NCBI GenBank assembly: GCA_937914815.1
Contig: CALDMI010000389.1
Span: forward strand, 1 to 15,459
From: an uncultured Clostridia bacterium
Lineage (GTDB): Bacteria; Bacillota; Clostridia; Oscillospirales; CAG-272
DNA length: 15,459 nucleotides
Direction of reading: 5' to 3'
Shown: positions 94 to 15,459 of the stretch, one piece after another
Position numbering within the stretch: the first letter of the stretch is position 1
Layout of the letters: the number at the start of each line of letters is the position of its first letter
Made by a program: the position numbers and the translations under genes
Notes under the pieces: generated by a model
What the model was told of the DNA's origin: nothing
What the model saw: only the letters and a program-made list of their open reading frames with translations
The model's database searches: none

Positions 94-1026
94 ATGACGA
101 CAAATGAACTTATGATTACGTGGCTCGACGGCTTCGAGCGAGAAAGAGTCAAACCGCGGACATATTCGAGGTACAGGGGCTTGATCGTCCGGCATATCCT
201 GCCTGCGCTCGGCGGTATGGCTGTTGACGATCTCGGGAGGCGGCAGATCTCTGAATTTCTGGCAGAGCATAGGGCAGGGGGAAATCTCCGCGGCGGTAAT
301 TCATTATCTGCAACCAGTACAAATCTGATGTTGACCGTACTGAATTCCGCCCTCTCGTATGCTTGCGATATGGAGATAATCTCCGACAACCCATGCGACC
401 GTATACGGCGTGCGCCGAGCCCGCCGACAAGGGTTAAAGCCTTTACCCGGGAAGAACAGATAAGGCTTGAGAGAACTATCACGGACTCGTGCGACCGACG
501 ACTGTTCGGCGTCCGTATATGCCTGTATACAGGGCTCCGTATAGGAGAGCTGCTCGGACTTGAATGGCAGAATGTTGATCTTGAGAAAGGCGTCCTGCAT
601 ATTGAAAAGACGGTTTACAGAGAAAAGAACGCCGTCGGCGAGTGGCAGCTGTTTGTAGACCGACCGAAAACAGCCGCATCTGATCGAATGGTCCCACTGC
701 CGGATTATCTTGCGGAGGAGTTGCGCGACTACAAAGCGGGCGCGCAGAGTGAGTTTGTTATAGAAAATAAAAAAGCCGGGCGAATGTCAATCCGCTCGTA
801 TCAGTATTTGTTTGAACGCCTGACAGAAAAGGCGGAGGTCAGAAAGCTTAACTTCCACGCCCTGCGACACACATTCGCCACCCGCGCTCTTGAGTGCGGA
901 ATGGACATTAAGACGCTCTCCGAGCTTATGGGGCACAAAAATGCGACAATTACGCTGAACCGCTATGCACATAGCATGTTGGACACAAAAATTACAGCCA
1001 TGAATAAATTGGAAAAGCTTTTTTGA
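94..1026 (+). CDS. Tyrosine site-specific recombinase (phage-integrase type), probable DNA invertase
   Basis: This is a 310-residue tyrosine recombinase that cuts and rejoins DNA at short paired sites through a covalent 3'-phosphotyrosine. An N-terminal SAM-like core-binding domain (about 1-105) precedes the catalytic domain. The full catalytic set is visible: R149 in TGLRIGE, K192 in RPKTA, H255 and R258 in HALRHTFATR, H281 in GHK, and nucleophile Y291 in NRYAH. I chose ATG 94 over TTG 88 because AAAGGAG (79-85) lies 8 nt before the ATG but only 2 nt before the TTG. The gene ends 9 bp before the first of two inverted sites that look like recombinase core sites, so it is probably the invertase for that element (inference). 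It could instead be an integrase left by the island. As sequenced, the leftward promoter of the element points into its 3' end and would give antisense RNA. Confidence 0.93.
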   Translation: MTTNELMITWLDGFERERVKPRTYSRYRGLIVRHILPALGGMAVDDLGRRQISEFLAEHRAGGNLRGGNSLSATSTNLMLTVLNSALSYACDMEIISDNPCDRIRRAPSPPTRVKAFTREEQIRLERTITDSCDRRLFGVRICLYTGLRIGELLGLEWQNVDLEKGVLHIEKTVYREKNAVGEWQLFVDRPKTAASDRMVPLPDYLAEELRDYKAGAQSEFVIENKKAGRMSIRSYQYLFERLTEKAEVRKLNFHALRHTFATRALECGMDIKTLSELMGHKNATITLNRYAHSMLDTKITAMNKLEKLF

Positions 1027-1034
1027 AGAAAAAA

Positions 1035-1059
1035 TGTATCGATTATAACATTCGGTACA
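1035..1059 (+). repeat. Left inverted repeat (IRL), recombinase core-site form
   Basis: Arms TGTATCGATT and ATTCGGTACA flank the spacer ATAAC (1045-1049). The arms match as inverted copies at 8 of 10 positions. The 16 bp at 1044-1059 match 1183-1198 exactly in reverse complement, and over the full 25 bp the two repeats agree at 22 positions. Arm-spacer-arm is the usual layout of a tyrosine recombinase crossover site. Confidence 0.85.
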
Positions 1060-1081
1060 TAATAATACATTTATTAATTCA

Positions 1082-1110
1082 AGTATAACATATAAAATCT
1101 TTTTTTTCAA
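1082..1110 (-). promoter_or_regulatory. Strong leftward housekeeping-sigma promoter inside the invertible element
   Basis: On the minus strand, TTGAAA (1110-1105) is followed by a 17-bp spacer and TATACT (1087-1082). TGT directly upstream of the -10 box forms an extended -10. The predicted start is near 1075, reading left through IRL into the recombinase 3' end. The spacing and boxes resemble the promoters at 10539-10567 and 10615-10643 in this window. After inversion it would face the methyltransferase operon. Confidence 0.8.
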
Positions 1111-1129
1111 CATTCAAAACTCAATTTCC

Positions 1130-1172
1130 AAGGGCACCCCGCCGATTTTCGTACACGGGGTGCCCTTTTTTT
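1130..1172 (+). terminator. Rho-independent terminator inside the invertible element
   Basis: AAGGGCACCCCG (1130-1141) pairs perfectly over 12 bp with CGGGGTGCCCTT (1156-1167) around a 14-nt loop, and T runs from 1166 to 1172. On the other strand the hairpin is followed by GGAAATTGAG with no T run, so termination should be directional. As sequenced it ends recombinase transcripts and insulates the genes to the right. Confidence 0.9.
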
Positions 1173-1182
1173 ATGCCCTCAC

Positions 1183-1207
1183 TGTACCGAATGTTATATT
1201 CGGTGCA
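1183..1207 (-). repeat. Right inverted repeat (IRR), recombinase core-site form
   Basis: Arms TGTACCGAAT and ATTCGGTGCA flank GTTAT (1193-1197), the complement of the spacer in IRL. The palindrome extends to 12 bp per side (1181-1192 and 1198-1209) with one mismatch. It lies just before the ribosome site of the next gene, so an ON transcript would carry it as a leader hairpin. It has no T run and is not a terminator. Confidence 0.85.
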
Positions 1208-1222
1208 GTAAGGAACGGAAAA

Positions 1223-1909
1223 ATGGAGAAAAAACAGGTCAAGTCAAAGGAGCGCGTCGCCGCGCACGGCGAGGTCTTTACCGCCGAGCGCGAAGTAAAG
1301 GCAATGTGCGACCTCGTAAAACCGGAGACCGAACGCATTGATTCCCGATTTCTGGAGCCCGCGTGCGGAGACGGAAACTTCCTCACCGAAATTCTTTCCC
1401 GCAAGCTCGCGTGTGAGCAGCTCAAAAAGTACCGCAAAAGCGGCTACGACTGGGAGCGTAATTCGCTGCTTGCGCTCGGCAGTCTGTACGGGGTGGATAT
1501 CCTCGCGGACAATTGCGAAGCCTGCCGCGAGCGGCTTTATGCAATTTGGAATACGGAGTACAGAAAGGTCTGCAAAAGCGAGTGCAACGATGATACACGG
1601 GCGGCGGCAAAATTTATTCTTTCCCGTAATATCGTTTGCGGGAATGCGCTGTCCCTTATGTGTGTAGACGGGGCGGGGAAGGATACGGAAAAACCGATTA
1701 TATTTTCTGAATGGACTTTCCCATTCAATGACGGGCGTATTCAGCGCAAGGATTATTCATTTGCCGAGCTTCTGAACAACGCCGACCGGAACGAAACCAA
1801 CCGGAAAACCGGTCAGCAGACTCTTTTCATGGACGAAAGCGGAGAGGAAGAACCGCTGTTCCTTGCACAATATATCACAAATTACAGGAGGCTCGCCGAC
1901 CATGAGTAA
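1223..1909 (+). CDS. DNA methyltransferase-fold protein lacking catalytic motif IV
   Basis: This 228-residue protein has the front half of an N6-adenine DNA methyltransferase. It shows a motif X-like GEVFTAEREVKAM (16-28), SAM-binding motif I FLEPACGDGNF (43-53), an acidic motif II-like YGVDIL (89-94) and NIVCGNALSL (136-145). No NPPY or DPPY loop follows; the equivalent region reads SEWTFPFNDG (162-171), so methylation by this chain alone is unlikely. From memory it resembles a recurring compact family rather than a random fragment, but I cannot verify that. ATG 1223 is chosen because TAAGGAA (1209-1215) lies 8 nt upstream; the in-frame GTG at 1160 sits inside the terminator stem and the invertible segment. 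It overlaps the next gene by 8 bp, so it may act as a SAM-binding partner subunit (inference). Confidence 0.8.
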   Translation: MEKKQVKSKERVAAHGEVFTAEREVKAMCDLVKPETERIDSRFLEPACGDGNFLTEILSRKLACEQLKKYRKSGYDWERNSLLALGSLYGVDILADNCEACRERLYAIWNTEYRKVCKSECNDDTRAAAKFILSRNIVCGNALSLMCVDGAGKDTEKPIIFSEWTFPFNDGRIQRKDYSFAELLNNADRNETNRKTGQQTLFMDESGEEEPLFLAQYITNYRRLADHE

Positions 1910-3479
1910 TGCGCTGTTTGAAAATGTCTATAACCCGGATGTGTTGTCCTGCCTTGCAAACCTCTCGAATGACGAGGTCTTTACGCCTCCGGATGTTGTC
2001 AACAAGATGTTGGACATGCTCCCGCAGGAGCTGTTCCGCAACCCCGACACTACATTTCTTGATCCCGCATGTAAAACCGGCGTTTTTCTGCGTGAGATTG
2101 CAAAGCGACTGATTGTTGGATTGGAGCCGCAGATACCCGACCTGCAGGAACGTATTGACCACATCTTCCATAAACAGCTTTACGGAATTGCTATTACCGA
2201 GCTGACGAGCCTTCTCTCCCGCCGGGGAGTGTATTGCTCTAAATATCCGAACAGCGAGTTTTCGGTGAGCCGCTTTGACGACGCACAGGGGAATATCCGT
2301 TATAAGCGTATTCAGCATACATGGGGTAAAACGACCTATGATAACGACGGAAAACCGAAAGCATCATGTGTATGGTGCGGCGCGTCAAAAACGGAATATG
2401 ACCGCTCTAAAGAACTGGAAACTTACGCATATGAGTGGATTCATATGCAGAACCCGGAGGAGATTTTCAAAATGAGATTTGATGTGATTATAGGGAACCC
2501 GCCGTATCAATTGAGTACAGGCGGTAGCCTGGATATGCAAGCCACTCCGATTTACAACAAATTTGTTGAAGTCGGAAAAAAGATGAAGCCAAGATACCTT
2601 AGTATGATCATTCCTTCGCGTTGGATGAATGGTGGCTTTGCATTGGATAATTTTCGAGAAGAAATGATAAGCGACAAATCAATTCGCATTTTACATGATT
2701 TTTTGAATGCAGAAGACTGTTTTTCCGGTATCAACCTCACAGGCGGCGTATGTTATTTCTTGTGGGACAGAGAATATTCTGGAAAATGCCTTATTTTTAC
2801 GCACGAGAAAAAAGATCAAACAATTGAATCCGAACGATATTTGAAAGAAGATGGATGCTCAACTTACATAAGATACAGCCAAGCACTCTCTATTCTTAAA
2901 AAAGTAAGAAATTATGGTGAAGCTAAATTTTCCGAAATTGTCAGTCAAAGAGATCCTTTTGGTTTGAATTACTATGACGGAAAAACAGAGCATATGTTTA
3001 AGCCAACGAAGTTTAGTCCATTTCCAAATTCAATAAAACTTTATTATTTTGGTTGGCAATCCAATGGTGTCGGATATATTGAACCAGAGAGAATAACCAC
3101 AAGAAGGGATGCAGTAGATAAATACAAAGTATTGATCTCAAAAGCAAATGGAGCAGCAAGCAAACAGGCTCCTTATGCCGTAATTTCACAACCTTTCATT
3201 GCAGCTCCTCAGGAATGCTGCAACATGACTTATTTATGTATTGGTCCGTTTGAAAATAAACAAGAAGCGAAAAATTGCTGCTTGTATATAACAACTAAAT
3301 TTTTTCGATTTCTCGTTAGCCTACTAAAAAACACGCAAAACGCATTAAGAAAAGTGTACTCGTTTGTCCCCATGCAAGACTTCTCAAAACCATGGACAGA
3401 TGCAGAATTATATGCAAAATACAACCTGACGCAGGAAGAAATCGGCTTTATTGAATCAATGATAAAACCAATGGAATAA
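1902..3479 (+). CDS. Eco57I-like N6-adenine DNA methyltransferase
   Basis: This 525-residue protein probably transfers a methyl group from SAM to adenine in a specific DNA site. It has motif X-like DEVFTPPDVV (24-33), motif I FLDPACKTGVF (52-62), a CVWCG pair (156-160) and catalytic motif IV NPPY (199-202). The remainder is a large C-terminal target-recognition region ending in DFSKPW and FIESMIKPM. ATG 1902 is supported by AGGAGG at 1886-1891; an in-frame TTG at 1863 lies upstream without such a site. From about residue 200 the DNA becomes clearly AT-richer: hand counts are 33 of 60 GC at 1981-2040 but 18 of 60 at both 2641-2700 and 3001-3060. That suggests the recognition half was swapped in. 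I see no nuclease motif, so restriction probably depends on the downstream GIY-YIG helicase. Confidence 0.9.
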   Translation: MSNALFENVYNPDVLSCLANLSNDEVFTPPDVVNKMLDMLPQELFRNPDTTFLDPACKTGVFLREIAKRLIVGLEPQIPDLQERIDHIFHKQLYGIAITELTSLLSRRGVYCSKYPNSEFSVSRFDDAQGNIRYKRIQHTWGKTTYDNDGKPKASCVWCGASKTEYDRSKELETYAYEWIHMQNPEEIFKMRFDVIIGNPPYQLSTGGSLDMQATPIYNKFVEVGKKMKPRYLSMIIPSRWMNGGFALDNFREEMISDKSIRILHDFLNAEDCFSGINLTGGVCYFLWDREYSGKCLIFTHEKKDQTIESERYLKEDGCSTYIRYSQALSILKKVRNYGEAKFSEIVSQRDPFGLNYYDGKTEHMFKPTKFSPFPNSIKLYYFGWQSNGVGYIEPERITTRRDAVDKYKVLISKANGAASKQAPYAVISQPFIAAPQECCNMTYLCIGPFENKQEAKNCCLYITTKFFRFLVSLLKNTQNALRKVYSFVPMQDFSKPWTDAELYAKYNLTQEEIGFIESMIKPME

Positions 3480-3751: not shown

Positions 3752-6712
3752 ATGCCAACCGACTTTTTCACCGAACGCCCGGCGGTCACGCCTACAATTT
3801 ACGCCTATGCGCTCCCCGGCGTCGCATCGCATGCAGGATATATCAAGGTCGGATATACCGAGCGCGATGTTGAAAAAAGAATTTATGAGCAGACGCACAC
3901 AAGCGGTGTGAAGGCGCAGATCCTTTATCGCGAGTCCGCCATGCGTCCGGACGGCTCCTGCTTTACAGACCGCGATGTGCACCGTATTCTCGAACGGAAA
4001 AGGTTTCGTCGGCTGAACGCGGGGGATGACCGCAACGAATGGTTCAATTGCACGGTCGGCGATGTCAGGGCGGCGGTAGATGAGCTGAAAACCGGGATCC
4101 GCCTTGACGGAGAGCGCACGGCAACCTTCCGTATGCGCCCGGAGCAGGTGCGCGCCGTCGAGAGAACGGCTGAATATTTCAAAAAAGCCAAGGCGGATGA
4201 GCCGGGGCAGACCCCGAAATTTTTGTGGAATGCCAAAATGCGTTTCGGCAAGACATTTGCCGCATATGAGCTCGCAAAGAAAATGGGACTCACAAAGATA
4301 CTTGTCCTTACCTTCAAGCCTGCGGTTGAGTCGGCATGGCGCGAGGACCTTGTCACTCATGTTGACTTTGACGGTTGGCAGTTCGTTTCCAACAAGGACG
4401 CGCATATGGGAGATATGAATATCGACCGCCAGTATGCCATGGCGGACAAGTCCCGTCCGGTTGTGGTATTCGGCTCCTTTCAGGACCTGCTTGGCACCAA
4501 TGAAGCCGGAGGTATCAAGGCGAAAAACGAGTTTATACATATGACCAACTGGGATCTTGTCATTTTTGACGAGTACCATTTCGGCGCGTGGCGCGAGAAC
4601 GCGAAAAAGCTGTTTGAAAATCCGGACGAGGAAGAATCAGCCGATTTTGATGCCGAAAAGTACAGCATTGAGGAAGCGGGGAATGCCTACAATGAGACAT
4701 TTCTGCCTATCACGACGAGTTACTATCTTTTCCTTTCCGGCACTCCCTTCCGCGCTATCAATTCCGGAGAGTTCATAGAGGAGCAGATTTTCAACTGGAC
4801 CTATTCCGACGAGCAGCGGGCAAAGAAAAACTGGATAGGCTCCGGAAATCCGTATCTGTCTCTGCCGCGCATGGTAATGCTGACATACCGTATCCCCGAC
4901 AGCATACGGCAGATTGCCATGCAGGGGGAGTTCAACGAGTTCGACCTTAATATTTTCTTTTCTGCAAAGGGAAAGGGAGAGGACGCAAGGTTCGTATACG
5001 AGAACGAGGTGCAGAAATGGCTTGATCTCATTCGCGGCTCATATTTACCATCGAATGTTGACGATATGAAGCTCGGACAGGATAAGCGACCGCCTATGCC
5101 ATATTCAGATACGCGGCTTCTGAATGTGCTTTCACATACGCTTTGGTTTTTGCCGAATGTTGCGTCTTGCTTTGCAATGTACAACCTGCTCATGCAGAAG
5201 CAAAATGCATTTTACCGTGACTATGAAATCAATGTCTGCGCCGGGACGCGTGCGGGCGTCGGTCTTGATGCGCTTGCCCCCGTGCTTCGGTCAATGGGTG
5301 ACCCGCTGAAAACCAAAACAATTACGCTCTCTTGCGGAAAGCTGACGACCGGAGTTACGGTCAAGCCGTGGACGGGAGTTTTCATGCTTCGGAATCTGAA
5401 ATCGCCGGAAACTTATTTTCAGACTGCATTCCGCGTGCAGTCGCCGTGGGAAATTAACGACGAGGCGGGAAACAAGACCATTATGAAAGAGGAGTGCTAT
5501 GTCTTTGACTTTGCGCTCGACCGTGCGCTCCGTCAGATATCCGACTATTCCTGCCGCCTCGATGTAAACGAATCGAATCCGGAGCGAAAGGTGGCGGAAT
5601 TTATTGATTTTCTCCCGGTGCTTGCCTATGACGGCAGTACAATGCGTCAGATAAGTGCGCAGGATGTACTTGATATTGCTATGGCGGGTACGAGCGCGAC
5701 CCTGCTTGCAAAACGGTGGGAGTCCGCACTCCTTGTAAATGTGGATAACGATACACTGGGGCGTCTCCTCTCGAATAAGGATGCGCTCGCCGCTCTTATG
5801 AATATTGAGGGCTTCCGCTCTCTGAACAGCGATATTCAGACTATAATAAACAAGTCCGAGGCGGTGAAAAAGGCAAAGAAGGCGGGAGAGGAAAAACTCA
5901 CACCAAAGGAAAAGAAAGAACTGTCAGCCGAGGAAAAGGAATACAAATCCATGCGCAAGCAGATTCAGGAAAAACTTATAAAGTTTGCTACGCGCGTGCC
6001 GGTATTCATGTATCTGACTGATTACAGGGAGCGCTCGCTTCGCGATGTCATCACACAGCTTGAGCCGGGGCTTTTCAAGAAGGTAACCGGACTTGATGTC
6101 GGGGATTTTGAGATTCTCTGTTCTCTCGGCGTTTTTAATGCAAGCCTTATGAACGACGCTATTTTCAAATTCAAGCGTTACGAGGATTCGAGCCTTACAT
6201 ATACTGGACTCAACAAGCACGCTGGAGAGGACATAGGAGGCTTTGATACCGTTATCCGCCGCGAGGAGTATGCGAAGCTGTTCTATAATCAGCAGGCAAC
6301 AATGAAAAATGACCGCCCGACACAGCAGGCACAGGCAGAGGCACAAGAGAAAGAGAGCGAGCCGGAGGCTCCGCATGTGACAGCGCCGGCGAATACTGGT
6401 AAACCCGCGCCCTGGACTTCGCATATACAGCATAATCCCCCTCCGCTTGTGAGCAGGCAATATGAAACAAATCACCTCGCCGCAAAGCCGTTCGCATCGC
6501 AGACTCCGCAAAATACCGTGGTTTACACCGTGCCCGATGTTCATGAGGGAGATACGGTCGTACATAAGAGTTTCGGAAACGGAACCGTAATACGGTTTGA
6601 TAAGGCAAGCAAACATATCCGCGTTCGCTTTGAAGCCGGGGAAAAGACATTTATTTTCCCGGATGCCTTCAGGGCGGGATTTCTGAAAATGCCGGAGCCT
6701 GCTGCGAAATAA
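3752..6712 (+). CDS. GIY-YIG/T5orf172 nuclease-SF2 helicase fusion (restriction-type subunit)
   Basis: This 986-residue protein joins a nuclease-like domain to an ATP-driven DNA translocase. Residues 14-100 resemble T5orf172/GIY-YIG: YAYALP (17-22), GYIKVGYTERDVEKRI (29-44) with R43, H77 and NEWF (95-98) with E96. The SF2 helicase core follows: Walker A MRFGKT (163-168), Walker B DEYH (273-276), SGTP (329-332), and a motif V/VI region near 528-566 ending AFRVQSPW. A charged Lys/Glu stretch lies near 700-740, then a Pro/Gln-rich linker. Residues about 928-980 (HEGDTVVHKSFGNGTVIRF) resemble the small beta module at the end of UvrD/PcrA helicases. ATG 3752 has GGAGG at 3740-3744. It probably translocates on and cuts unmodified DNA (inference). 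The domain order is unlike classical HsdR, where the nuclease is PD-(D/E)XK. Confidence 0.88.
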   Translation: MPTDFFTERPAVTPTIYAYALPGVASHAGYIKVGYTERDVEKRIYEQTHTSGVKAQILYRESAMRPDGSCFTDRDVHRILERKRFRRLNAGDDRNEWFNCTVGDVRAAVDELKTGIRLDGERTATFRMRPEQVRAVERTAEYFKKAKADEPGQTPKFLWNAKMRFGKTFAAYELAKKMGLTKILVLTFKPAVESAWREDLVTHVDFDGWQFVSNKDAHMGDMNIDRQYAMADKSRPVVVFGSFQDLLGTNEAGGIKAKNEFIHMTNWDLVIFDEYHFGAWRENAKKLFENPDEEESADFDAEKYSIEEAGNAYNETFLPITTSYYLFLSGTPFRAINSGEFIEEQIFNWTYSDEQRAKKNWIGSGNPYLSLPRMVMLTYRIPDSIRQIAMQGEFNEFDLNIFFSAKGKGEDARFVYENEVQKWLDLIRGSYLPSNVDDMKLGQDKRPPMPYSDTRLLNVLSHTLWFLPNVASCFAMYNLLMQKQNAFYRDYEINVCAGTRAGVGLDALAPVLRSMGDPLKTKTITLSCGKLTTGVTVKPWTGVFMLRNLKSPETYFQTAFRVQSPWEINDEAGNKTIMKEECYVFDFALDRALRQISDYSCRLDVNESNPERKVAEFIDFLPVLAYDGSTMRQISAQDVLDIAMAGTSATLLAKRWESALLVNVDNDTLGRLLSNKDALAALMNIEGFRSLNSDIQTIINKSEAVKKAKKAGEEKLTPKEKKELSAEEKEYKSMRKQIQEKLIKFATRVPVFMYLTDYRERSLRDVITQLEPGLFKKVTGLDVGDFEILCSLGVFNASLMNDAIFKFKRYEDSSLTYTGLNKHAGEDIGGFDTVIRREEYAKLFYNQQATMKNDRPTQQAQAEAQEKESEPEAPHVTAPANTGKPAPWTSHIQHNPPPLVSRQYETNHLAAKPFASQTPQNTVVYTVPDVHEGDTVVHKSFGNGTVIRFDKASKHIRVRFEAGEKTFIFPDAFRAGFLKMPEPAAK

Positions 6713-7363: not shown

Positions 7364-8136
7364 TTCCGTTTCTTCCTTTCGCTTGTGTTTCCGCGGCTCT
7401 TTGCGCCTCCGGCGCCCTTGCCGCCATTTCCGCCTTTACCGCCGTTTTGCGCTTTGTCACCGTTTCCTGCCTTTTTGCCGTCGGCGCTGCTTTTCTCCCG
7501 CATGTTTTCTTTGGCGCCCTTGCCGCCGCTCCTGCCGTTTGCGGACTTGCCGCCATTCTGTGCTTTTCCGCCCGGCTTCTTTTTAGTAGCCGAGAAGCCG
7601 AATTTGCCTATCTTTCTCCCGAGCTCAAAGTATTCGCCGTGACAGTATGCCATGAGCCCCGCGCGGTCAAGGCAGATTCTGCCGTCAGCGTCGAGTATCT
7701 CCGGGGAAACCGAGATGTTGACAATGTCCGCGACAAACATGTCATGTGAGCCGAGGGGGATAATATCCGTCACCCGACACTCGAGCGAGAGGGGACACTC
7801 TGCAATCGTCGGCGGGGCGACAACCGCACTCTTGCCTTCGGTAAAATGGCACTTTTCAAACTTATCGACCTTTTTACCCGTGAAAATTCCGCAATAATCC
7901 ACCTCGCGCACCATGCGAGATGTCGGGAGGTTTATTACAAATTCCCGTCCCGCCGCGAGAATATCGTGCGAATGGCGGGTAGGGCGCACCGAAACATAGG
8001 TTTTCGGCGGGTTTGTATTGAGAATACCCGTCCATGCGACGGTTATTATGTTGGCTTTCCCCGGCTCTCCGACCGTGACGAGCACGGCGGGGAGGGGCGC
8101 CGTCATGGCTCCGGGCTTGAAATTCTGTCTTTCCAT
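7360..8136 (-). CDS. Flavin-reductase-like FMN-binding split-barrel protein with Gly/Lys-rich tail
   Basis: Residues 1-183 form a flavin reductase-like domain (FMN-binding split barrel): NIITVAWTGILNTNPP (29-44), the SVRPTRHSHDIL region (49-60), FVINLP (66-71) and SHDMFVADIVN (130-140). Members bind FMN and either reduce flavin for partner enzymes or act as small oxidoreductases; the substrate here is unknown. Residues 184-258 form an unusual low-complexity basic tail rich in G, K and N, with AQNGGK occurring twice and ending ERKKRK. Related proteins usually end near 180-190 residues. The tail could bind nucleic acid or be a variable repeat (inference). The ATG at 8136 has only a weak ribosome site (AAAGG adjoining it). 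The stop overlaps the GTG start of the XRE gene. Confidence 0.85.
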   Translation of the reverse strand: MERQNFKPGAMTAPLPAVLVTVGEPGKANIITVAWTGILNTNPPKTYVSVRPTRHSHDILAAGREFVINLPTSRMVREVDYCGIFTGKKVDKFEKCHFTEGKSAVVAPPTIAECPLSLECRVTDIIPLGSHDMFVADIVNISVSPEILDADGRICLDRAGLMAYCHGEYFELGRKIGKFGFSATKKKPGGKAQNGGKSANGRSGGKGAKENMREKSSADGKKAGNGDKAQNGGKGGNGGKGAGGAKSRGNTSERKKRK

Positions 8137-10704: not shown

Positions 10705-11382
10705 ATGGAATACAGATATGAGACACATCTTCATACGAGCCCTGTGAGCCGATGCGCCACGGCGACGGTGGCGGACTCGCTTCGGTTTTATAAGAGCTCC
10801 GGCTATGACGGGGTTTTTATAACAAATCATTTCCTCGACGGAAATATAAACTTTGATAAGAGCCGCCCCTACCGCGATAAGATAGAATTCTACTTCTCGG
10901 ACGCCGAGGAGGGCGAGAGAATAGGGAAACAGATAGGACTGAAGGTCTTCACGGGGGTCGAAATGTCGAATCACGGCACCGACTTCCTCGTTTACGGGCT
11001 CTCGAAGCTCTGGTACCTCTCGCACCCCGGTATAATGGACATGCCGTACCGTGAAAGGCTCGATTTCCTGCGCGCGAGCGGGGCATTCGTCGTTCAGGCG
11101 CACCCGTACCGCGAGGCAAATTATATAGACCATATCCGTCTCTTCCCCCGGAGTGTCGACGCCGTCGAGGTTCTGAACGGCATGAACGGAAAAGAGACGT
11201 ATGACCTGACCGCGCTGTATGCAAAGCATTACGGGCTCCCCGGCGTCGCGGGCTCGGATAACCATAACGGCAGTAAATTCCCCGCGGCGAGCCTTGCGGG
11301 AATAGTGACCGATGAGCCGATTTTCTCCGTAGCCGACTACCGGCGGATAGTGAAGTCGGGAAAATACCGCATATTCGGCTGA
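10705..11382 (+). CDS. PHP-domain metal-dependent phosphoesterase
   Basis: A 225-residue stand-alone PHP protein, a metal-dependent hydrolase of phosphate esters. The metal ligands appear in order: H8 and H10 (HLHTSP), H42 (TNH), E86 (TGVE), H133 (AHPY), and D185 and H187 (GSDNHN). The size fits small cytoplasmic PHP proteins, some of which cleave nucleoside monophosphates or histidinol phosphate; no substrate can be assigned. GGGAGGA lies 4 nt before ATG 10705. It is first in the rightward set, 31 bp before the rhamnosidase. Confidence 0.92.
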   Translation: MEYRYETHLHTSPVSRCATATVADSLRFYKSSGYDGVFITNHFLDGNINFDKSRPYRDKIEFYFSDAEEGERIGKQIGLKVFTGVEMSNHGTDFLVYGLSKLWYLSHPGIMDMPYRERLDFLRASGAFVVQAHPYREANYIDHIRLFPRSVDAVEVLNGMNGKETYDLTALYAKHYGLPGVAGSDNHNGSKFPAASLAGIVTDEPIFSVADYRRIVKSGKYRIFG

Positions 11383-14407: not shown

Positions 14408-15459
14408 ATGTATTACGGATACGATATAAGTGACAATACGGTAAAGCTCGCCGAGAGGGCAGAGGCTGACCTTACGGAGATATTCAAAAAAATAGACGAG
14501 AACGCCCTTATCTGCTCGGCAAAGGTGCTCCGCGCCTTTCAGGAATGTAAGCTCTCGAGTTCGGATTTTATAGAGGTGACGGGCTACGGGTATACGGACG
14601 CGGGAAGAGAAAAGCTTGAGGAGATATATGCGAAAATTTTTAACGCGGAGGACGCCCTCGTCCGCCCGCAGCTGATGTCCGGCACCCATGCCCTCTATGT
14701 AACGATGAGCGCATTGCTCCGCGCGGGCGAGACGCTGGTCTATATCTCCGGCACCCCGTATGACACCCTCCAGAGCGTCATAGGAACATCGGGCGACAGC
14801 CGGAATTCCCTTATAAAATGGGGAGTAAAATATGACGAGGTCGCCCTCCGCGGCGACGACTTTGACCTTGACGCGATAAGAGAGCGGCTTTCCCGCGGGG
14901 ATGTCCGCGTCGCCGCCATACAGCGTAGCCGCGGCTACGCCCACAGAAGAAGTCTCACAATAGATAAGATAGCCGAGGCAATAAAGGTCTGCCGCGAGGC
15001 GTCGCCGGATACAATTATCATGGTCGATAACTGCTACGGCGAGTTTACCGAGGACAGGGAGCCCTCCGACGTCGGCGCGGATGTCTTTGTCGGCTCGATG
15101 ATGAAAAACCTCGGCGCCGGACACGCCGTCAGCGGGGCGTACTGCGTCGGTCGCCGGGATGTTATAGAGGATATAGCCGAGCGGCTGACCGCACCTTGTG
15201 TCGGAAAGAGCCTCGGCGCAAACTTCAATCAGCTTGCATCTTTCTACAAGGGACTGTTCATGGCGCCTTCTGCCGTCGCCGCGACGCTCAAATCAATGGC
15301 GTTCGCCGCCCGCATGCTTGAGCTCTCGGGGTATGCCGACGTCTCGCCGAGATACGACGAGAAGAGAACGGATATAGTGCAGACGGTGGATCTTCACTCG
15401 GCGGAGAAGCTCATTAAGTTCTGCGTCGGAGTTCAGAAGGGCTCGCCGGTAGAGGCATA
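14408..15459 (+). CDS. PLP-dependent enzyme of the Alum_res / methionine gamma-lyase-like family, partial
   Basis: The reading frame is open from ATG 14408 to the window end, giving 350 residues; the C-terminus is outside. It matches the PLP-dependent family called aluminium resistance protein or methionine gamma-lyase family protein: FKKIDEN, TGYGYTDAGREKLEEIYA, ALVRPQLMSGTHAL, ISGTPYDTLQSVIG, IQRSRGYAHRRSLT, VDNCYGEFTE, GSMMKNLGAGHAVSGAY and SPRYDEKRTDIVQ. K233 in SMMKN is the expected PLP Schiff-base lysine, and D in VDNCYGEF should contact the cofactor. The true reaction of this family is poorly defined. AAGG lies only 3 nt before the ATG and GAGG (14390-14393) 14 nt before, so the start signal is not ideal, but the N-terminus fits the family. 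Confidence 0.92.
   Translation, partial: MYYGYDISDNTVKLAERAEADLTEIFKKIDENALICSAKVLRAFQECKLSSSDFIEVTGYGYTDAGREKLEEIYAKIFNAEDALVRPQLMSGTHALYVTMSALLRAGETLVYISGTPYDTLQSVIGTSGDSRNSLIKWGVKYDEVALRGDDFDLDAIRERLSRGDVRVAAIQRSRGYAHRRSLTIDKIAEAIKVCREASPDTIIMVDNCYGEFTEDREPSDVGADVFVGSMMKNLGAGHAVSGAYCVGRRDVIEDIAERLTAPCVGKSLGANFNQLASFYKGLFMAPSAVAATLKSMAFAARMLELSGYADVSPRYDEKRTDIVQTVDLHSAEKLIKFCVGVQKGSPVEA

Follow-up and report, generated by a model that had tools for sequence, protein, structure and literature searches.

Does the short stretch between a tyrosine recombinase gene and a restriction-like operon, found in an uncultured Clostridia bacterium, act as an invertible switch of that operon? The window (the whole stretch of DNA that was analysed, 15,459 nt in length) carries at this place a pair of inverted repeats that enclose a predicted promoter and a predicted terminator, as listed in Table 1. 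The initial annotation read this arrangement as a promoter-terminator switch caught in OFF. After analysing the window together with its relatives, we consider it very probable that the segment is an invertible promoter-terminator switch of the operon and that it is run by the adjoining tyrosine recombinase.

Table 1. Positions of the switch, the recombinase gene and the operon genes in the window.
Feature	Position	Strand	Remarks
Tyrosine recombinase, putative invertase	94..1026	+	310 aa from ATG 94; TTG start at 88 possible
Left crossover site	1035..1059	+	Dyad TGTATCGAT-TATAACA-TTCGGTACA
Invertible segment, 123 nt, putative OFF orientation	1060..1182		Called from promoter direction and from relatives found both ways
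Leftward sigma-70-type promoter TTGAAA-17-TATACT	1082..1110	-	Predicted; TG precedes second hexamer
Rightward intrinsic terminator, 12-bp stem, 7 T	1130..1172	+	Predicted by folding
Right crossover site	1183..1207	-	22/25 identical to left site, same 7-nt spacer
Methyltransferase-like subunit MTase-N, 228 aa	1223..1909	+	FLEPACGDGNF present, NPP motif absent
Eco57I-type DNA methyltransferase	1902..3479	+	PF07669 E 2e-33; FLDPACKTG and NPPY in translation
Small Cys-containing protein, 85 aa	3492..3749	+	No family found
T5orf172 nuclease domain fused to ResIII-type helicase	3752..6712	+	PF10544 E 5.2e-11, PF13455, PF04851

The repeats reported by the initial annotation were re-found in the repeat listing of the window, where they were the top of 72 pairs, with 25-nt arms that are 88% complementary, lie 123 nt apart and match at 22 of 25 positions, the inner 16 nt being exact. 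Among 1000 shuffles of the local 700 nt, one reached 22/25 within 1 kb, as did 2 of 60 shuffles of the whole window; taken alone, the repeat is only moderately surprising, and it is notable because of its content and place. Both arms are dyads around the same asymmetric 7-nt spacer, TATAACA, as expected for the crossover sites of a recombinase. The consensus-like leftward promoter between the arms was also re-found and was the sole match in positions 800-1500, but it is weak when taken alone since shuffles average 0.5 matches (sd 0.8). Its score was 20.3, while the opposite strand reached 17.1 at best. The rightward terminator held up more strongly, with a folding energy of -24.8 kcal/mol (z -5.06) and 0 of 200 shuffles as good, although a first terminator scan with a loop limit of 8 passed over it and gave a minus-strand site at 1444-1431 instead. 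Called from the direction of the promoter, the window is predicted to be in OFF, in agreement with the earlier reading. In the inverted form, the computed positions place the promoter at about 1132-1160 on the + strand, towards the operon, and the terminator at about 1070-1112, directed away from it. In OFF the leftward promoter is directed at the recombinase gene's 3′ end and could possibly affect the recombinase; ahead of this end stands a hairpin with six T, which is weak at -4.2 kcal/mol. An Rfam scan of the window gave nothing at gathering scores.

Pfam matches agreed that a tyrosine recombinase lies on one side of the segment and a methyltransferase-helicase operon on the other. The recombinase matched PF00589 (E 3.4e-31) and PF14659, and residues R149, K172, H255, R258, H281 and Y291, which we take to be the catalytic residues of a tyrosine recombinase, were invariant across 19 aligned recombinases, the one in the window included. 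The solved chain closest to it in sequence was 6en0 (E 8.2e-18), an 'Int protein' that presumably originates from Tn1549. The 19 aligned sequences were picked from 120 matches listed, and a scan of genome and viral contigs with this family alignment gave 72 loci in genome contigs and one locus in viral contigs. When the genomes of one family were searched, 19 of 41 contained a relative of the recombinase at E 1e-50. Nothing nearer than 65% was found for the window recombinase in the samples around G002, G001 and G006, and the window gene at 14408-15457 was found in 0 of 297 genomes in the order of G002, a search that had no positive control.

In total, 109 recombinase matches resolved, after duplicates and short flanks were taken out, into 86 distinct loci, one of them the window, whose downstream sequence extended for at least 330 nt. 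A repeat pair of at least 17/20 with a gap of 75-200 nt was present at most 400 nt downstream of the recombinase in 48 of the 86 loci, or 47 without the N-gapped scaffold L092, compared to 8 of 688 mononucleotide shuffles. When the threshold was lowered to 16/20, the repeat was present in 56 of the 86 loci and in 17 of the 688 shuffles. These 56 loci minus L092 (the same as L013) gave a set of 55 segments; L019, L043 and L071 have doubtful repeats and were kept in this set and in the counts of OFF and ON states but left out of the site profile. In L043 the 16/20 pick passed over a second pair, with starts at 11174 and 11286. Most of the genome-contig loci come from records titled MAG. Several loci are kin, so the counts overstate independence. 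The switch is part of a broad family that has varied cargo and comes mainly from records titled Clostridia. In the L013/L092 scaffold, a 124-nt mirrored segment at L013:9081-9387 has a run of N between its copies, and the scaffold may have joined both orientations. In 8 of 53 loci (from 73) the contig ended no more than 250 nt downstream of the recombinase, where the density at greater distance predicted about 0.5, and in 1 of the 53 it ended no more than 250 nt upstream; this 250-nt limit was picked after the list had been inspected. Such ends fit mixed orientations in a sample, and short repeats alone might break assemblies too.

Strand exchange by tyrosine recombinases requires identical spacers. 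In the 45 loci of the site profile, all with repeats of 17/20 or better, the eight central positions (-3 to +4) were identical between the arms in 45 of 45, and the identity between left and right arm dropped outward to 0.42-0.6 at the ends. Dyad symmetry was highest at offsets 5-6 and 9-10, but part of the profile was favoured by the way it was built, with the dyad centre picked for symmetry and the loci for repeat identity. The best promoter score was at least 19 in 37 of the 55 segments, compared to 14 of 1100 dinucleotide shuffles, and averaged 19.3 compared to 16.9. The two strands differed in score by 2 or more in 44 of the 55 segments and in 10% of the shuffles, and the weaker strand was slightly over the shuffles (16.35 versus 15.96, p 0.002). 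The promoter-based prediction was OFF for 41 of the 55 loci and ON for 14, or 36 and 12 when a score difference above 1.5 was required. The OFF majority also fits slow or biased switching.

Each of the 55 loci was then compared with its own in-silico inverted form for a rightward terminator. A terminator was present only in OFF at 14 loci, only in ON at 1, in both forms at 2 and in neither at 38, so the terminator half is not universal by the rule used. The 14 loci include kin (L036/L038/L042 and L052/L096/L099/L100), and a hand count by lineage gave about 9 versus 1; the opposite case, with its terminator in ON, is L058. An earlier and looser rule, with a loop of up to 10, gave 10 OFF-only, 3 ON-only, 12 both and 30 none, and by strength the OFF form was stronger at 15 loci, the ON form at 3 and the two were equal at 37. 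This rule overlooked the terminator of the window, and the longer-loop, stricter-tail rule was adopted after its result was known. In L036, L038, L042, L044, L052, L096, L099, L100 and L111 the stem of the terminator sits at the left crossover site, which suggests that in OFF this site may also form a complete terminator. The downstream repeat pairs, the one-strand promoters and the OFF-biased terminators of the relatives, together with the inverted segments described below, support the reading of the window as a promoter-terminator switch.

The first gene of the operon encodes MTase-N, which matched MmeI_Mtase below the cut-off of that family and had weak MTase_II matches. MTase-N retains the motif FLEPACG[DN]GNF, whereas NPP was absent from all 32 MTase-N sequences recovered from 35 loci, and 19 of the 32 had SEW about 116 residues after the motif. 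MTase-N is possibly a non-catalytic partner subunit. In a comparison with 12 other loci, of which L015 and L087 are incomplete, the 85-aa protein found no counterpart. The last gene joins the T5orf172 domain, which we take to be a GIY-YIG-type nuclease domain, to the helicase, and its product is the presumed restriction subunit. A PADLOC model, REase_MTase_IIG (PDLC03626), spans residues 120-768 of this protein (2.9e-32) and also matched the methyltransferase gene (3.1e-47), where it came second to the top match, MTase_II PDLC03375 (6.9e-53). The helicase and the methyltransferase are homologous to the type IIG/ISP-like REase_MTase_IIG family, but the type IIG/ISP class joins restriction and methylation in one polypeptide, whereas here they are in separate genes and a T5orf172 domain is added. 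Since it is split over separate genes, the system may work like IIG/ISP but is not filed there.

Searches with MTase-N hit 7 of 394 genomes in an order sample, 19 of 297 in a second order and 2 of 146 in a family (one of them already found). They gave 27 distinct loci, 26 of which had enough upstream sequence. A recombinase and a repeat were present upstream of MTase-N in 5 of these 26 loci (L186, L188, which is L044, L199, L202 and L206), or in 4 of 25 when L188, which belongs to the genome at the centre of the first sample, was left out; 20 of the 26 had neither. One further locus, L196, lacks a recombinase nearby but carries the repeat and a promoter that faces as in OFF, and is possibly an orphan switch or a switch served in trans. 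Its repeat pair (18/20) lies ahead of MTase-N at L196:1276-1459, which is at about 6.7-6.9 kb in L216, and no recombinase relative was present in 14 kb of L216. The genome of L196 has two other copies, one beside a different repeat and one with none found.

Eight loci combine the switch with the operon, namely the window, L015, L044, L111, L186, L199, L202 and L206. The predicted state is OFF for the window, L044, L111, L186 (relative to the strand of its operon), L199 and L202, and ON for L015 and L206. The repeats of L111 and L199 are only 16/20, a level reached by 17 of the 688 shuffles, and L015 is a short contig with MTase-N and part of the methyltransferase. The initial annotation had suggested that the pairing with a restriction-like set was new; the pairing is not limited to the window as it recurs at 7 further loci. 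The eight recombinases do not form one clade, and a tree that kept them together was worse by 291 log units (AU p 7e-17). The operon label changed 6 times over 54 tree rows; if the count is limited to labelled rows, starred branches force at least 2 changes. The tree omits L018, L019, L043, L058 and L071 and adds four RM recombinases; its bootstrap was unsettled, and long branches meet at the clade of the window. That the recombinases are not one clade suggests that the switch and the operon were joined more than once, or were re-sorted. The same type of operon is found on the viral or phage-like contigs L083-L088 and in the phage record PV036449.1, with helicases that in some are 77-78% identical over the full length. 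Small helix-turn-helix-like genes were seen by eye upstream of the operon in L083-L088, and the upstream sequence there held no strong repeat (at most 16/22). A recombinase relative was not found in L083-L088, all of which except L086 were tested. Relatives of the helicase were present in 79 plasmid and 5 phage records.

The order of the genes allows another reading of what is switched, in which the segment serves chiefly the methyltransferase, as a phasevarion-type epigenetic regulator, and not anti-phage restriction. The methyltransferase genes come first in the operon, and passages of two papers describe phasevarions on other RM systems (PMC12707154, PMC11868660). We find this reading unlikely, although the two roles are not exclusive and can coexist. 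Of the other operon loci, all 10 whose sequence reached far enough carried the nuclease-helicase gene (L044, L212-L217, L001, L003 and L004; L015 and L087 are incomplete), which argues that restriction is used too.

A single orientation in many diverged strains had been named by the initial annotation as the outcome that would speak against a switch, but both orientations are present in four orthologous groups. The segments were compared all against all, and a match was required both in the segment and in the downstream DNA. Of the 13 locus pairs that matched in this way, 8 had the same orientation and 5 were inverted. The segment of L036 is inverted compared to L038 and L042 (89%; recombinases 98% and 97% identical), that of L099 compared to L100 (91%; recombinases 91% identical), and that of L113 compared to L129 (86%; recombinases 90%) and L118 (79%; recombinases 88%). 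In all five pairs the downstream DNA runs in the same direction and the promoter calls are opposite. The fourth group, L202 and L206, comes from two genomes and lies before the same type of operon as in the window, with MTase-N, methyltransferase and GIY-YIG-helicase in order in both. Their recombinases are identical at 280 of 315 positions, the left flanks at 61 of 70 and the right flanks at 70 of 78. The inner segments are identical at 121 of 150 positions when one is inverted (score 140), compared to a score of 22 in the same orientation and a maximum of 30 in 500 shuffles. The longest downstream frames of L202 and L206 (the same loci as L213 and L212) are identical at 296 of 473 positions, or 63% compared to 89% for the recombinases. 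By length these frames are partial Eco57I methyltransferases, and the methyltransferase may be changing more quickly than the switch ahead of it.

We also considered that the promoter and the terminator are simply fixed, which the relatives with an inverted segment make unlikely. Separately, the 15-nt core of the window was present in 52 stretches of viral contigs, none of which had two oppositely oriented copies; they were taken as chance, with no expectation computed.

The opposite orientations are known from relatives and not from the window's own copy, which could instead be a former switch that was locked in OFF when the recombinase or a site decayed. The outer halves of the arms differ (TGTATCGAT versus TGCACCGAA), with 3 of 25 arm positions changed, and OFF prevails in the family (41/55). 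We consider locking very unlikely, as the recombinase frame is open with its presumed catalytic residues kept, the spacer and the inner arm halves are identical, and similar differences in the outer halves are present in loci found both ways, for example L036/L038. Least credible is that the recombinase is the integrase of a mobile element, with the arms as attachment or accessory binding sites and the promoter and terminator as fixed regulation: the solved chain nearest to it in sequence is an 'Int protein' and the restriction operon is found on phage-like contigs too, but the constant layout of recombinase, short segment and cargo before unrelated genes, the segments inverted between orthologues and the lack of a mobile-element family match in the six other window proteins that were scanned all speak against it.

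The anatomy of the locus, the symmetry of its sites, the family-wide association and the opposite orientations in orthologous relatives were observed directly, and with the invertible switch as the preferred reading we propose the following model. The recombinase would bind both dyad arms and carry out the inversion, and strand exchange inside the identical 7-nt spacers would invert the ~148-bp piece between the crossover points, so that the copy in the window presumably flips. In OFF, the best promoter would face away from the operon and the strong terminator would halt transcripts arriving from the recombinase side, and we propose that the restriction-modification operon is silent because of this combination. 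In ON, the promoter, if active as its sequence suggests, would stand about 60 nt ahead of the first operon gene with the terminator behind it and directed away. A population would be a mix of silent cells and cells that methylate their DNA and presumably restrict foreign DNA. Methylation may start first when the switch turns ON, as two methyltransferase genes lie ahead of the nuclease-helicase gene. If the model is correct, part of a restriction-system family is silent in many cells and turned on at random, so phage resistance and gene-transfer barriers would vary within a clone. It would also offer a compact natural part with distinct OFF and ON states, built from a recombinase, two sites, a promoter and a terminator, and would allow a test of whether bacteria hedge their bets on costly defence as they do on surface structures.

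Invertible promoters, or invertons, in gut bacteria were reportedly described by Jiang and colleagues in 2019. Like the switch in the window, gut invertons are short promoter segments within inverted repeats ahead of a regulated gene, often with an invertase near. Passages of a published survey of such promoters in gut bacteria describe inverton group 139, with 33 invertons, 32 of them from Clostridia, tied to the tyrosine-recombinase invertase group 35 (PMC11892184). The switch family of the window may be this inverton group and invertase group. The gene links named in those passages are surface products, invertases and hsdS, with the restriction cargo of the window unnamed there, and terminators are raised only as a possibility for future work, whereas the segment in the window contains a predicted one (PMC11892184). 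Invertible promoters as such were already known; what is new is that this restriction system recurs together with such a switch and that the switch unites a promoter and a terminator. The fimS/FimB-FimE switch of E. coli also has a tyrosine recombinase, inverted repeats and an invertible promoter, features that the window shares. The fimS element is given as 314 bp in a passage of PMC9993118. The window differs in its size of about 148 bp, its one recombinase, the terminator inside and the restriction cargo. RecV of C. difficile acts on several distant sites, unlike the recombinases in the family of the window, each of which adjoins its own segment. Passages on RecV-controlled switches describe recombinase-driven invertible segments upstream of operons (PMC7446863, PMC9286219), a clostridial arrangement like that in the window.

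Control of an RM system by DNA inversion has parallels as well. Dybvig and Yu are said to have described hsd inversion in Mycoplasma pulmonis in 1994, and hsd is a type I system there. Shuffling of hsdS in type I RM systems by DNA inversion is described in passages of PMC4948785 and PMC5903667, the latter also covering clostridial inversions near signalling genes. Shuffling of hsdS changes specificity, whereas the segment in the window would turn the whole split Eco57I-MTase/GIY-YIG-helicase operon on or off. The passages of a 2025 review of RM biology treat promoter exchange and site-specific recombinases in general terms, without the words 'inversion' or 'invertible'. Among the top-ranked titles and abstract beginnings of the open-licence PMC literature, none treats promoter inversion of such a restriction system.

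The switch also stands before genes of other kinds. From the 55 loci, 40 downstream proteins were scanned, of which three are the L044 operon and several are the second gene, and 17 of the 40 had no Pfam match at 1e-5. The surface-like matches included List_Bact, LRR and InlB-type repeats, pilin-like N_methyl and collagen-like; further matches were to glycosyltransferase, SPFH, HSP70, AraC-type and radical SAM/SPASM families, the last in the second frame of L033. A gene with an NRPS condensation domain lies behind the switch in L089 (the same as L010), and TIR-domain genes do so in L102 and L110. In L016, a fused ResIII helicase-Eco57I protein starts 954 nt from the repeat; L090 shares the downstream sequence of L016 in a translated comparison, and its contig piece stopped before any such gene appeared. 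With moderate confidence we propose that a transferable cassette, made of a tyrosine recombinase and a promoter-terminator segment in which the site is sometimes the terminator, has repeatedly come to lie before unrelated genes throughout the Clostridia, turning defence systems (the split Eco57I/GIY-YIG restriction system and perhaps the fused helicase-MTase and TIR genes) into bet-hedged ON/OFF traits.

Elsewhere in the window, the minus-strand gene of a flavin-reductase-like protein contains GC-rich repeats at 9-nt spacing (7403-7572), which encode a low-complexity Gly/Ala/Lys-rich tail on the protein.
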